Positions 10,947 through 17,117 of a stretch of 41,117 bases of DNA are shown in pieces. The translations under genes and the position numbers were made by a program. The notes beneath the pieces were generated by a model. That model searched no databases, had not been told where the DNA came from, and saw nothing but the letters and a program-made list of their open reading frames with translations. Within the stretch, counting starts at the first letter, position 1; each line of letters begins with the position of its first letter. Location: positions 1 through 41,117 of the forward strand of contig JAUXHA010000010.1 of assembly GCA_030621845.1 (NCBI GenBank), in the 5' to 3' direction. This DNA comes from Spongiibacteraceae bacterium (GTDB lineage Bacteria > Pseudomonadota > Gammaproteobacteria > Pseudomonadales > Dasaniaceae).

Positions 10947-11264
10947 ATGACAGAAACCGAGTTTAACGATCTTATCGATCACACCTTTACCCTGATCGAA
11001 GAGGCAATAGACGAATGTGAGGCCGATATTGATAGTGAAGACAGCGCGGGGGTACTAAGCCTGGGCTGTGAAGACGGCAGCGCTATCATTTTTAGCCGGC
11101 AGGCGGCGAGCCGGGAGTTGTGGCTGGCAGCTCGCTCTGGCGGGTTTCATTTTATTTATCGGCAGGGTCAATGGTATTGCCCTAAATATGAAAAATCCCT
11201 GGCACAGTTGTTTGCTGAAATTACGGAGGCACAAGCGGGTGAAACCATTACCCTGGATTGCTAG
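10947..11264 (+). CDS. cyaY: Frataxin homologue CyaY
   Basis: 105 residues, the usual CyaY size. The acidic first helix (FNDLIDHTFTLIEEAIDECEAD) supplies the iron-binding ridge, and the beta sheet carries GVLSLGCEDGSAIIFSRQ and ELWLAARSGGFHF, matching the frataxin sheet with its conserved Trp. It modulates iron-sulfur cluster assembly with IscS in the cytosol. It is divergent from lptM, as in many gammaproteobacteria, and its end overlaps the next gene by 26 bp. TACAAT at 10915-10920 is a possible -10, with no clear -35. Confidence 0.93.
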   Translation: MTETEFNDLIDHTFTLIEEAIDECEADIDSEDSAGVLSLGCEDGSAIIFSRQAASRELWLAARSGGFHFIYRQGQWYCPKYEKSLAQLFAEITEAQAGETITLDC

Positions 11265-12240
11265 AGGGCTGGCGTTGACGGTCTGGTTGGCTTCGCTCCC
11301 GGTGACGGCAGACAGCGAATTAAATACGCCTTTCTTCAGTTCTAATCTTAATCCGCTGGTGCAGGTTTATGGCCTGCCGACGACCCGGGGTGCGGTGTTG
11401 GCTGACAAAGGACAATGGAAAGCCGGGGTGCAACTGGAGGCAGCCAATAGTTTCGCTTTTGACGATAACGCCAATGAGGCTATTTTCCTGGATGGTGAAA
11501 CGTATCGGGCAACGCTGCTGGTGGATTATGGACTGAGCGATAAATTCGAGTTTAGTATTGAACTGCCTTATCTTAGCCACGATGGTGGCAAGCTGGATAA
11601 GTTGATAGAGAATTGGCATGATTTCTGGAATTTACCCAAGGGCGATCGCGATGATTTCCCCCGCGATCAACTGAATTATAGTTATCAGCATGAAAATAAT
11701 GTATTGGTCAATTTACAGGATTCAGCAAGCGGTATTGGCGATGTTAGCCTGATGTTCGGTTATCAATTGGCGGCGAATACGCAGACCGAGTGGTCATTGC
11801 GTGGCGGGGTTAAATTACCCACCGGGGATGCTGACGAATTAACCGGTTCGGAATCAACGGACCTTCATCTGGGTGTTTATGTTAGCAGGCAGAGCTTGTT
11901 TGCGTTGCCTTCACTCTATGCGCATGCCAACGTCGGTTTGTTGTGGATGGATGACGGCGAGGTAGCTAACGAGGTGCGCGAGGACTGGGTGGCTTATGGC
12001 TCTACCTCCTTGAGCTGGATGGTAAGCCGGGTTGTTAGCCTGAAAGCACAGCTGGATTTTCATAGTGCATTTTACGACAGCAGGCTGGAAGAAATTGGCG
12101 AATTTACCGCGCAGTTGGTTTTTGGTGCTTCGATTCGCGCGAGTAAAAACACAGTCGTTGATCTATCCATGAGTGAGGATATTGTGGTGAATGCCTCGCC
12201 GGATGTTGTCTTTCAGCTGGGTGTGCGCTCAGCCTTTTAA
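11239..12240 (+). CDS. DUF3187 family exported protein (putative outer-membrane beta barrel)
   Basis: 333 residues from the GTG at 11239. The frame stays open back to 11068 inside cyaY, but GGAGG at 11225-11229 with a 9-nt gap and the signal peptide beginning MKPLPWIARGLALTVWLASL identify the GTG. The mature part is rich in alternating hydrophobic and aromatic strands, such as FEFSIELPYLSH, SLRGGVKLPTG and HLGVYVSRQ, and ends in GVRSAF, a C-terminal Phe of the kind recognised by the BAM complex. It is therefore likely an outer-membrane barrel of about 12 strands. Function unknown. It overlaps cyaY, suggesting translational coupling, and its stop shares bases with that of cyaA. Confidence 0.8.
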   Translation: MKPLPWIARGLALTVWLASLPVTADSELNTPFFSSNLNPLVQVYGLPTTRGAVLADKGQWKAGVQLEAANSFAFDDNANEAIFLDGETYRATLLVDYGLSDKFEFSIELPYLSHDGGKLDKLIENWHDFWNLPKGDRDDFPRDQLNYSYQHENNVLVNLQDSASGIGDVSLMFGYQLAANTQTEWSLRGGVKLPTGDADELTGSESTDLHLGVYVSRQSLFALPSLYAHANVGLLWMDDGEVANEVREDWVAYGSTSLSWMVSRVVSLKAQLDFHSAFYDSRLEEIGEFTAQLVFGASIRASKNTVVDLSMSEDIVVNASPDVVFQLGVRSAF

Positions 12241-15056
12241 ACTTTTTGTAGCGCGTGATTCAGTGCTTTTTCCAGTTTTTGTTTATAGCGTAAATAATCC
12301 GTGGTCTGGATTGCGCCACGGCGCTGGCGATTGATGCAGCGGCTGAGGTCGAGGTCGGTGATATAACAAGGGTAGCGTTCGTGGGAAACGCGGCGCTCTA
12401 TAATAAATCGGGCAACGGTGTCGAACAGTTTGTTACCGAGTTCCAGTTCAGTAAATTCGTTTTGATCACAGTAAATATTAAACACGATACGGCCATCAAT
12501 ATCGCGTTCCCCAATCGCCTGGACATTGAAAAAATAACCTTTGCTGGTGTCGTTGTTCAGCGCGCAGCGATCAAGTTGCAGGGCGTCGGCCGGGCCGCTG
12601 ATCTGATAGTATTCCAGTTGAAAGTGCTGAAAACTGAATTCCGTTGAGTTGTCTGCGGTTTCGGTACTCTCCCGAAATAGCATGGAATGCATGAACTGGT
12701 CCAGTGGAGCGAGCAAGGTATGTTCATCGCGAAAAGGGGTGCTAAAGAAATACAGCGAACCCATTTCATCAAGCACATAAACATCGGCGTTGTTATTATT
12801 TTGCTCATAGTAGAGCTGGATGCGGTTCGGTTTTTCCGATTGAATGACAGCTTGCAGTACGGTGTCCTGCAGGCAGTGATCGTCCAGTTTAATCGGGCTG
12901 TAATGGTTTTGGGTTTTGCCGAGTATTTCCAGCAGTTTATTATAATTCTCTGCACGTTCGATGTTGGGTCGATTCTGGTCAAACTGAATCACAAAAAAAT
13001 GTTTTTGCAATTGTAAAATATAGCGACTGTGAATTGAATGCGCACCCTGATAGTAGCAATTATTGATGTTGGAAAATAACTTTTCTACGCGGTTTGCCGT
13101 GCCCGAGGAACGATTAGCGGTAAAACAATAGGTGTCCAATGGGGGCGGCTGGACATCTTTACCCGGCGGCAGCATTTGCAAATATTCACGCAAACAGCGA
13201 ATTAGTGCATATTCCCCATCGAAACGCCGGGTGGTAATTTCTCCCCAGCTATTGAGTATGACCTCTTCAATATTGTCGATGGCCATGCTGTCGAGAATAG
13301 TTGTCGGCTGATCGCCGGTATCACTGTGGCTACGGCCTACATTGATAAATAGCTGGATATGACTGGGGCGTTTATTATCGCTGTAGCAGTGTTTGTGATC
13401 AATAATTTCATTGTTGTTGTCGGCAGTGAGCGGAATTTTTTCTCGCAGGCTGCGCGCCATATTTTGCAGTTCAAAATCATTGATGCCATGTTCGCCTTCA
13501 ATGATCGAAAGTTTCGTACTGGTATTGGTGAGCCCATTAAAATGACACCATGCCAGTAGTGAGACCAGACTGTTTGAGCGTTTAAGTACAGTGGCTTTGT
13601 ACGCGTTATCGGCGGTGATGGCTTGCGAGCTAAGCGCCCAGGCACGCTTATCGGCGGTTTGGTAAAAATACAGCTGCTCTTCTGCCAGGTTGCTCGAAAG
13701 GCTGGAATTGATCCGTTCAATTTTTCCCGCTTTGCGCTCGAAGGTGGCAAATAATTTCCTGCCAAGAATATTCATCGATTCCGGGTTGATGCTGCTGGTC
13801 TCGTTGCAATTGCGTACAAAATCGAGCAGAAAACGATAGTGGCTGGTTAGCTCGCTGGCCAATTCTTTTTGTTCCGGCATGGCCTGGCCAATTTTCCACT
13901 GGCTGCGGGCATCCAGTTGTTGCAGGTAGTTCGGCGACCACTGCCACTCGGCGATCAGCTTTTCCATTAATTGCCGCTTCCAGGGGGTCTGCCTGGCGCT
14001 ATCTGCCTGGGAGAGCTGAATGCCCGCTTTATAATAAAAACAGCGTCGTACCAGTTCCAGTCTTTTAGGTTCGCTGCGTTGGATCAAGTGTTTTTCAATG
14101 CAGCGATAGATTATTACATCGGGGTCCAGCTCGTCGAGATTAACCTGGTTATTGTGTATAGCCGTTTTAAATTGTTGGCTCAGGAGTTTGATTTTTGGAA
14201 ATACGGCGGCATGAATCTCGGCCATGACGATGTTCAGGATTGCCTGATAGGGCTGGTCTATGCCCTGATTGAGCTGCATAGCGCTGGTTTCGATAAATTC
14301 GGCGGCGCTGATTTCATCGATGCAGCCAAAATCCAGGCATTCATCGCTGCCAATTAACTGTTTTTTGTGCAGCATGAACAGGTATTGCTCGTAATGTTTC
14401 TCCATGCTGGCGGGAACCAGCCACCAGGCCGGGATGCGACCGCCAATCAATAGTCCGTATTGGTAAAGCTCATCCAGTTGGAAGTTTTCCAGCGGGTGTC
14501 GGGTTTCAGTCGCACTGAGGCCCTGGTCAAGTTCCAATCGATAGTGTTGCTCGGCCATCAGTGAGAACTGAACCTGTAAATCCAGTTCGCTGGCCCAATG
14601 ACTGAGCATGTCAGTTTTTTGCCGCAATAATTCCAGCTGCTGTTCGTTTAAGTCCCGGCGATGACACAGCGAAAGTTTAAACGTATCGCTGTGTTTCTGG
14701 GCAATGGTGCCACAACCGCCCAGCAGCCAGATGCTGACAATGTCGCCGCCGCTAGTGGTCTGCTTATTATGGGTAAAGCTGCGCGCCAGGCGTTGGGTTT
14801 TCTGGATCAGGGTGCGTGAAGGCGTAAAACCCTCCAGCCCGCAGGGTGCCTGGGGTGAAACATAGCCCGGCAGCATCGGGTGGTTAATGTGCAAGAGCAT
14901 GGGTAGCAGTTCGAGAAAGATCTGCTGCCGGCTTTCCAGCGCCGATTTACTGCGTGCCAGCCGGGCATTATTAACAAGCAGGAAACGCTCGCGCAGGGCT
15001 GACAGCGTTCCCCGGTCGAGGTTGACCCGTTGATTGGGTGATTTAAGGTGGGGCAT
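12237..15056 (-). CDS. cyaA: Class I adenylate cyclase homologue with degenerate catalytic motif
   Basis: 939 residues from the ATG at 15056; the frame is open to a TTG at 15113, but the Pseudomonas-like start falls at MPHLKSPNQ. The N-terminal domain (ALRERFLLVNNARLARS, WLLGGCGTIAQKHSD, GGRIPAWWLVP) and the long C-terminal domain are characteristic of class I cyclases, which make cAMP from ATP. The nucleotidyltransferase signature, normally Gly-Ser then Ser-Asp-x-Asp-x-Trp, reads Gly-Gly (113-114) and SDTFKL (123-128). The first Asp (124) is kept, but the second Asp is Phe126, Trp is Leu128 and Ser is Gly114. The reading frame is intact. Either activity is lost or altered, or the protein has become regulatory. 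Position between argH-hyuA and cyaY matches other cyaA loci. Confidence 0.9.
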   Translation of the reverse strand: MPHLKSPNQRVNLDRGTLSALRERFLLVNNARLARSKSALESRQQIFLELLPMLLHINHPMLPGYVSPQAPCGLEGFTPSRTLIQKTQRLARSFTHNKQTTSGGDIVSIWLLGGCGTIAQKHSDTFKLSLCHRRDLNEQQLELLRQKTDMLSHWASELDLQVQFSLMAEQHYRLELDQGLSATETRHPLENFQLDELYQYGLLIGGRIPAWWLVPASMEKHYEQYLFMLHKKQLIGSDECLDFGCIDEISAAEFIETSAMQLNQGIDQPYQAILNIVMAEIHAAVFPKIKLLSQQFKTAIHNNQVNLDELDPDVIIYRCIEKHLIQRSEPKRLELVRRCFYYKAGIQLSQADSARQTPWKRQLMEKLIAEWQWSPNYLQQLDARSQWKIGQAMPEQKELASELTSHYRFLLDFVRNCNETSSINPESMNILGRKLFATFERKAGKIERINSSLSSNLAEEQLYFYQTADKRAWALSSQAITADNAYKATVLKRSNSLVSLLAWCHFNGLTNTSTKLSIIEGEHGINDFELQNMARSLREKIPLTADNNNEIIDHKHCYSDNKRPSHIQLFINVGRSHSDTGDQPTTILDSMAIDNIEEVILNSWGEITTRRFDGEYALIRCLREYLQMLPPGKDVQPPPLDTYCFTANRSSGTANRVEKLFSNINNCYYQGAHSIHSRYILQLQKHFFVIQFDQNRPNIERAENYNKLLEILGKTQNHYSPIKLDDHCLQDTVLQAVIQSEKPNRIQLYYEQNNNNADVYVLDEMGSLYFFSTPFRDEHTLLAPLDQFMHSMLFRESTETADNSTEFSFQHFQLEYYQISGPADALQLDRCALNNDTSKGYFFNVQAIGERDIDGRIVFNIYCDQNEFTELELGNKLFDTVARFIIERRVSHERYPCYITDLDLSRCINRQRRGAIQTTDYLRYKQKLEKALNHALQKV

Positions 15057-15143: not shown

Positions 15144-17117
15144 TTAAATCGACTTGCTTAGCAGTAAATTGCCGAAATTATCGACAGATGCCTGCCAGTT
15201 CTCGTCAATCAGGGTGGTGGCTATCGGCTCTGTAATCAGTGCGGGACCCTCAAACCGCTGCCCGGCCTGTAGCTGCTCGCGGTCATAAATAGCCGTGGGC
15301 CTGGAGAAGCCTTCGAGCATCATCGTCGCCGCGCTGGGTGCAAGCAGCTTGCCGCCGGCTTGTCGTGGTAATTCGATGGTTTTGCCCGGAGCCCTGAGGG
15401 CGAGGCGGACAGTGACCAGCTCGATGGACAGCGCCATGCGGTGGCCATAGCGCTGTTGGTGGGCATGATGGAAGTCATCATTGCATTGGGCGAGGTGATG
15501 GTAGGGAATGTTGAGGGTGAAGGTCTGGCCCTGGTAGCGCAAATCAAGGCTGGCCTGGGTAGTAATGGCGGTGGCTTCAATGCCTTCACCTGCCAGCTGT
15601 TGCAGGCCATCGCTGCGTAGCTGCTTGAGAACAGCTTCGATTTCGAGCGCGTCCAGATCCTCCAGCCGCTTTTGGTAAGTAAGTGATAACTGTCGCTCTC
15701 TTGGCGCAACCAGCATGCCAAGAGCCGAAAGCACGCCGCCATTGAAGGGTATTAAAATGGATTTTATGCCCAGGTTCTCGGCCAGTGAACAGACATGCAA
15801 GCCGCCGGCACCACCAAAGCAGCAGAGGGTGAAATCGGCGGGGTCATAGCCGCGCTGAACCGATATCACGCGCAGGGCCCGGGTCATGTGCTCGTTGGCA
15901 ATGGCCAGGATGCCCAGTGCTGTTTCCTGGATGCTCAGTGCCAGTGGTGTGGCGATAGTGGCGATGGCTGTTTCCGCTGCAGCCAGGTCCAGGGTCATTT
16001 TACCGCCCAGAAAGGCATCGGGACGTAGCCGTCCCAACACGGCATTGGCATCGGAAACGGTGGCCCGCCGGCCGCCGCGGCCATAGCAGGCAGGGCCCGG
16101 GTCAGCCCCGGCCGATTCGGGGCCAACGCGTAACATGCCGCCATCATCTATATAGGCGATGGAGCCGCCACCGGCACCAATGGTGTGCATATCGACCATC
16201 GGCACGGCGACCGGGTAATGGCCAATATGGCCTTCGCTGGTGAGCTGGATTTTACCATCAATCAGCGCCACATCGGAGGAGGTGCCGCCCATATCAAAGG
16301 TGATCAGGCGCTGAAGTCGGGTTTGTTCACCGATGAATTTGGCCGCCGCCAGACCGCCCGCCGGGCCGGATAATAACAGGGTGACCGCTCGTCGAGCCGC
16401 CTGTGCGGCATCGATGGTGCCCCCTGAGGATTGCATTACTGCCACCGGACTGGGGGCGAGGTGTTGCCTGAGGGTGTCGAGATAGTCCTCGACCAGTGGT
16501 CCCAGCCAGGCATTGAGCCAGGTTGCCATGCCGCGTTCATATTCCTTGTATTCGGGTAATACAAAGGAGGAGCGGGAGCAGAATATGTCGTCAGCTACGA
16601 TGGCCTCAATGGCTTTTTCCTGCTGGTCATCGATAAAGGAAAACAGCAGATTGATTGCCACTGCCTGCGGTTTGAGCTTGATCAGTCGGGCTTTGAGCTG
16701 TTCCAGTTCGGCGGCGTCAAGCGCCTGTACCGTGGAGCCATCGGCGGCCAGTCGGCAGTTTACCTCCAGGCAGAGGGCCTCTGGCACGGGGGCGGCGATG
16801 AGCGGTGGTTGCAGCTGGTAAAGTTCGCGCCGGTTCTGGCGGCCGATGGTGAGCGTGTCCTTAAAGCCCCGGTTGGTAATATAGACCGTGCGCACGCCCT
16901 TGCCTTCGAGAGCGGCATTGGTAGCGACGGTGGAGCCGTGAACCACCACCAGTTCGCCGCGACGGGCGGCGGCTTTCAGCCCGAGTTCGGCAATGCCCTG
17001 GAGAATCGCCCGTTCCGGTGCGCTGGGGGTAGACAGCACTTTATGGATGCGGATGTCTTGCCCGTCGATGAGGACAAAATCGGTGAAGGTACCGCCTGTG
17101 TCTACGCCGAGTAACAT
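15144..17117 (-). CDS. Hydantoinase/oxoprolinase subunit A family protein (HyuA-like)
   Basis: 657 residues, typical for HyuA. It has the actin-like ATPase start GVDTGGTFTDFVLIDG (4-19), HGSTVATNAALEGKG (60-74) and the second phosphate-binding loop FDMGGTSSDVALIDG (274-288). The family cleaves cyclic amides such as hydantoins or 5-oxoproline using ATP, usually with a HyuB partner. No HyuB gene is adjacent, so the partner lies elsewhere or this protein works alone. It begins 4 bp after the argH stop, so it is co-transcribed with arginine synthesis, and ends 87 bp before cyaA. Substrate unknown. Confidence 0.88.
   Translation of the reverse strand: MLLGVDTGGTFTDFVLIDGQDIRIHKVLSTPSAPERAILQGIAELGLKAAARRGELVVVHGSTVATNAALEGKGVRTVYITNRGFKDTLTIGRQNRRELYQLQPPLIAAPVPEALCLEVNCRLAADGSTVQALDAAELEQLKARLIKLKPQAVAINLLFSFIDDQQEKAIEAIVADDIFCSRSSFVLPEYKEYERGMATWLNAWLGPLVEDYLDTLRQHLAPSPVAVMQSSGGTIDAAQAARRAVTLLLSGPAGGLAAAKFIGEQTRLQRLITFDMGGTSSDVALIDGKIQLTSEGHIGHYPVAVPMVDMHTIGAGGGSIAYIDDGGMLRVGPESAGADPGPACYGRGGRRATVSDANAVLGRLRPDAFLGGKMTLDLAAAETAIATIATPLALSIQETALGILAIANEHMTRALRVISVQRGYDPADFTLCCFGGAGGLHVCSLAENLGIKSILIPFNGGVLSALGMLVAPRERQLSLTYQKRLEDLDALEIEAVLKQLRSDGLQQLAGEGIEATAITTQASLDLRYQGQTFTLNIPYHHLAQCNDDFHHAHQQRYGHRMALSIELVTVRLALRAPGKTIELPRQAGGKLLAPSAATMMLEGFSRPTAIYDREQLQAGQRFEGPALITEPIATTLIDENWQASVDNFGNLLLSKSI

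Follow-up and report, generated by a model that had tools for sequence, protein, structure and literature searches.

The window, the whole stretch of 41,117 nucleotides analysed here, contains on its minus strand (12237..15056) a gene for a full-length homologue of the class I adenylate cyclases, with the catalytic motif destroyed. Translation from the ATG at 15056 gives an open reading frame of 939 codons, free of stops and frameshifts. The 939-residue protein matches PF12633 with 153.7 bits and PF01295 with 330.2 bits (cut-offs 27), and the two domains together span most of its length. Its best NCBIfam equivalog score is 918 bits against a cut-off of 1300, these cut-offs being seemingly set for narrow groups. 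In length, domain order, genomic position and predicted fold it is like E. coli CyaA (PF12633 and PF01295; NCBIfam PRK09450), but it lacks all the metal-binding and motif residues of that family. The source genome (G000) is represented by a single fragmented assembly of 176 contigs, 83.6% complete, in which no other class I cyclase was found. A single-protein scan of the genome contigs gave no close relatives of the window protein.

The ancestral locus argH / cya / lysA-dapF-xerC is kept around the gene, with argH and a hydantoinase gene on one side and DUF3187-lysA-dapF-DUF484-xerC on the other, and the adjoining genes are intact. The position of cya is the same in most relatives of the family and order, and in tblastn the proteins of relatives align with the window gene over its whole length in a single frame. 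A preliminary description of this DNA had taken the gene to be intact and in its usual place, and both statements hold. The DUF3187 gene (11068-12240, plus strand) converges on cya and overlaps its stop codon by 4 bases; it lies beside cya throughout the family, and remains where cya has been deleted. The hydantoinase/oxoprolinase A gene (15144-17117, minus strand) adjoins cya on the argH side, and among the relatives inspected only G004 and G032 have it at this place.

The register of the motif was set by a gapless alignment of the window protein with 26 relatives and E. coli CyaA. Residues 124-129 (DTFKLS; 14670..14687, minus strand) lie at the family S-D-x-D-x-W, residues 113-118 in E. coli, and with the motif start at L112/G113/G114 the family MGS ... 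SDxDxW reads LGG ... DTFKLS. The flanks GCGTIAQ (114-120) and LCH (130-132) align with the family without gaps, and the alternation F126/L128/L130 corresponds to E. coli L115/I117/V119. E. coli M101, S103, S113, D114, D116 and W118 become L112, G114, D124, T125, K127 and S129, and in this register both metal-binding aspartates are gone. The changes of D114 to T (ACG) and of D116 to K (AAA) each require at least two base changes. S103, S113, D114, D116 and W118 are reportedly essential in E. coli CyaA, in work attributed to Linder in 2008. Further along the chain Q161 stands at the E. coli E150 position, Q163 at the next-but-one His conserved in the relatives, and Q199 at R188. An alignment with relatives had been suggested in the preliminary description; G-S-S-D-D-W-E-H-R is kept at these positions without exception in the 79 other class I cyclases of the genome contigs in which the region is included, but not in the window protein. 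In nucleotidyltransferases two metal ions are held by three conserved acidic residues, with Tam41 and RelA as exceptions that have fewer or altered acidic residues (PMC11646218). Judged by the fold, the E. coli E150 position is probably that of the third carboxylate.

Both GG in place of GS and the letters SDTFKL are present as the preliminary description gave them, and its statement that the second metal-binding Asp and the Trp are lost is true in either register. Its equation of these with Phe126 and Leu128 is off by one, the SD having been placed one residue early, and the loss goes far beyond one Asp and one Trp. There are 83 near-invariant columns in 27 reference sequences, and the window protein is changed at 25 of them, all within residues 112-313. 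Inside 109-315 the changed columns make up 25 of 47, against none of the 36 outside, every one of which is kept (Fisher p = 1.6e-8). In a leave-one-out comparison the other relatives differ at 0-9 near-invariant columns, and E. coli at 13. The replaced E. coli-equivalent positions include S103, S113, D114, D116, W118, E150, R188, K253, K260 and K264; those of W249, K253, K260 and K264 are now M260, Q264, Q271 and N275. Alignment and codon model delimit two decayed segments on the minus strand, residues 109-200 of the nucleotidyltransferase core (14457..14732) and residues 241-315 (14112..14336). Alignment A1 places a 13-residue in-frame deletion relative to the relatives at about residues 575-587 (approximately 13296..13332, minus strand).

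The AlphaFold2 model of the window protein (mean pLDDT 78.6) keeps the nucleotidyltransferase fold, matching AadA with Z = 10.4 and an rmsd of 5.0 over 223 residues; for an active relative, whose model was built from the same alignment rows, Z is 11.6. Strand 2 of the model is formed by residues 126-132, in agreement with the gapless register. The catalytic residues are lost and the fold is predicted to be kept, as in a pseudoenzyme, and from its residues the window cyclase very likely makes no cAMP. A sequence search found no solved structure of a relative. The C-terminal region (~560-740) gave weak matches to actin-like and pantothenate kinase folds (Z 5-6.6 over ~70 residues) that are not interpretable.

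We compared the rates of evolution along the protein on a tree fixed by eight control proteins of the same locus. The window branch takes 4.5% of the tree length for the controls and 4.1% for cyclase residues 701-939, rising to 6-9% for residues 1-108, 201-240 and 316-700, 20% for 241-315 and 24% for 109-200. Codon models fitted to each region with free branch lengths were unstable because of saturation, and a joint fit was therefore used. The ratio of omega on the window branch to that of the background was 6.9 in 109-200 and 8.4 in 241-315, 2.5-2.9 in most other regions and 1.0 in 701-939 (LRT 0); with synonymous sites near saturation the absolute values of omega are rough, and the contrast between regions is the result. 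Omega = 1 was rejected in every region of the window cyclase, omega being here averaged over a long, near-saturated branch leading to a single sequence. One neutral period shared by all regions was also rejected (LRT 60.8, 6 df). The regional rates show that catalysis was lost selectively and that the protein did not decay uniformly. Constraint is nevertheless relaxed in part of it, since rates are raised 2.5-3 fold across most of residues 1-700. The C-terminal quarter (residues 701-939; 12240..12956, minus strand) has the rate of active relatives by both tree share and codon model.

The preliminary description had also proposed a search of the genome for another cyclase and for Crp/Vfr. G000 has an intact Crp/Vfr above the curated cut-off (368.7 bits versus 266), and three class III cyclase genes. 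By inspection the canonical metal Asp, Lys/Asp and Asn/Arg pattern is present in the class III cyclases of contigs C43 and C143. Contig C85 (L154:4129-6446) encodes a class III cyclase that carries a response-regulator domain and is divergently oriented to a gene for a Crp-like regulator; because its motifs read DEFIGD and VGHTVN, this cyclase may act on a substrate other than ATP. In several relatives, too, class III and Crp-type genes are near neighbours. Two members of the family, G006 and G007, have no class I cya, and DUF3187 is followed directly by argH (L159, L160). The removal was clean, with all neighbours kept, and the class I gene is therefore dispensable in this clade.

EIIA-Glc is the regulator of the class I cyclase in enterics. 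No match to PF00358 was found in G000 (83.6% complete) or its family, and we have therefore rejected EIIA-Glc as the partner of the C-terminal region. The CyaA of P. aeruginosa belongs to class I, and that organism has a class I cyclase, a class III cyclase and a Vfr-type Crp in one genome, as is found here. In the strain studied, deletion of cyaA did not significantly change cAMP, although cAMP comes from CyaA and CyaB alone (PMC3019171). CyaA is a working but minor source in P. aeruginosa (PMC3019171), whereas the window copy is without its catalytic residues.

The window protein is not the only member of the family in this condition. PF12633 scores surveyed across 293 genomes of the order and 369 of the class have a clear low-scoring tail, and reading it revealed destroyed motifs in full-length open reading frames of 878-967 residues in G096, G064/G171, G246, G139, G379, G451 and G428/G635. 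The motif reads GY and QQYIQVW in G096, GD and EQNIRIW in G064 and G171, and GT and GTELMIW in G246. In G211 and G637, which also score low, the motif is retained, and therefore a low PF12633 score alone is no proof of death. The D116 position in the dead lineages is K, Q, R, M or K, and that of K253 is Gln in four of them and Arg in a fifth. These homologues resemble the window protein: they are full length with a destroyed motif, have lost several of the lysines that it lacks, and come from genomes with Crp. They differ in having several separate origins, different replacement residues and in some cases other loci. All ten genomes with dead copies have a Crp that exceeds the curated cut-off, and a class III cyclase was found in nine of them; we claim no association from this, since such cyclases are frequent in the order in any case (48 of 57). 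The open-licence papers that we searched contained no report of dead class I cyclases.

In a tree of the C-terminal region the dead copies fall in separate places, so that class I cyclases have died in several independent losses, at least three. The window protein lies among active members of the family, G246 groups with active members of its own genus, and the f14 copies and G139 are placed elsewhere; for G064/G171, G379, G451 and G428/G635 the branches are so long that their deep positions are unreliable. G246 has the same acceleration in 109-200 as the window protein. Between the dead copies of G064 and G171 dN/dS is 0.078 (0.059 in 109-200 and 0 in 201-315), and between those of G428 and G635 it is 0.108. 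Dead class I cyclases can therefore be kept by purifying selection, since dN/dS between species is 0.08-0.11 in two same-genus pairs. G064 and G171 have two dead copies per genome (L164, L165, L168, L169), and the second is only 24-25% identical to the window protein, yet has a dN/dS of 0.100 between the species.

A sequencing or assembly artefact, or a set of compensated frameshifts, might be suspected because the single assembly is fragmented (176 contigs) and because genes of some relatives (G003 and G005) are broken up by what look like frame errors. This is hardly credible here. Every relative aligns over the full length in a single frame, 25 separate near-invariant positions are changed, those at D114 and D116 by at least two bases each, and the neighbouring genes are intact. 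On these grounds we reject both compensated frameshifts and a base-call error that would restore DxD, as the preliminary description had envisaged. In G003 (L055) it is LysA and HemC that are split into two frames, and in G005 (L062) the HK, HemD and cya genes, all probably through assembly errors. We have not taken G005 as a second decaying cya, because with HK and HemD split too a sequence error is likelier. The core could alternatively have been re-purposed, as a nucleotidyltransferase of a different, unorthodox chemistry, or as a nucleotide-binding sensor. The fold kept in the model, omega below 1 in the core, and the ability of Tam41 and RelA to function with altered acidic sets (PMC11646218) are consistent with this. 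Against it, all three carboxylates, the GS motif and the conserved lysines have been replaced, and the replacements mostly differ between dead lineages, unlike a new shared active site; we consider such re-purposing very improbable.

The gene might instead be in early decay, made redundant by class III cyclases, with the catalytic residues lost first and the reading frame still unbroken. The class III genes provide the redundancy, cya has been cleanly lost at the same locus in G006 and G007, and the raised rates over residues 1-700 and the 13-residue deletion are also in accord with this explanation. But neutral decay should strike all regions alike, which the model test rejects; all 36 near-invariant columns outside the core survive, and 701-939 has no excess of rate. 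From the fitted neutral fractions we estimate some 260 neutral substitutions in 109-315, from which roughly ten stops would be expected, and none is seen. Moreover dead copies elsewhere are conserved between species. We therefore think early decay unlikely, while giving it some weight. Of the two options offered in the preliminary description, relaxed selection on cAMP signalling finds no support in that form, given the intact Crp/Vfr, the canonical class III cyclases and the strongly non-uniform relaxation. Its other option, a regulatory pseudo-enzyme, has the stronger support, although it is the role itself that we infer.

Our preferred interpretation, which we think probable, is that the window protein is a pseudo-cyclase, that its retained part serves in regulation independently of cAMP, and that class III cyclases make the cAMP. 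The protein would fold like its family but be unable to bind two metal ions or make cAMP, and class III genes at other places in the genome would provide the cAMP for Crp/Vfr. Its gene would have been kept because the non-catalytic part, chiefly residues 701-939, still does a job without cAMP. That job would most likely be protein-protein regulation, as a sensor, scaffold or sink for the former controlling partner of the enzyme. Retention for a cAMP-independent regulatory function is the explanation we favour, and the case for it is weaker for the single sequence of the window than for the conserved dead pairs.

The recurrence of separate losses suggests that class I cyclases also do a job that does not involve cAMP synthesis. 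They might be bifunctional, combining cAMP synthesis with a cAMP-independent module, with several gammaproteobacterial lineages independently dropping the cyclase and keeping the module as a conserved pseudo-cyclase; we regard the chances of this as evenly balanced. Recurrent dead copies under purifying selection suggest that this textbook enzyme has a second function. The dead copies are natural mutants that distinguish catalytic residues, lost in parallel, from residues required for the other role, which are kept. There is also a practical consequence. Annotation calls such proteins adenylate cyclases and models of cAMP signalling assume that they synthesize cAMP, of which those described here are very probably incapable. 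One of the genomes with a dead class I cyclase, G451 (L178), has no class III match and a Crp just above the cut-off, and judged by its gene content it may be without a conventional adenylate cyclase of these two classes.
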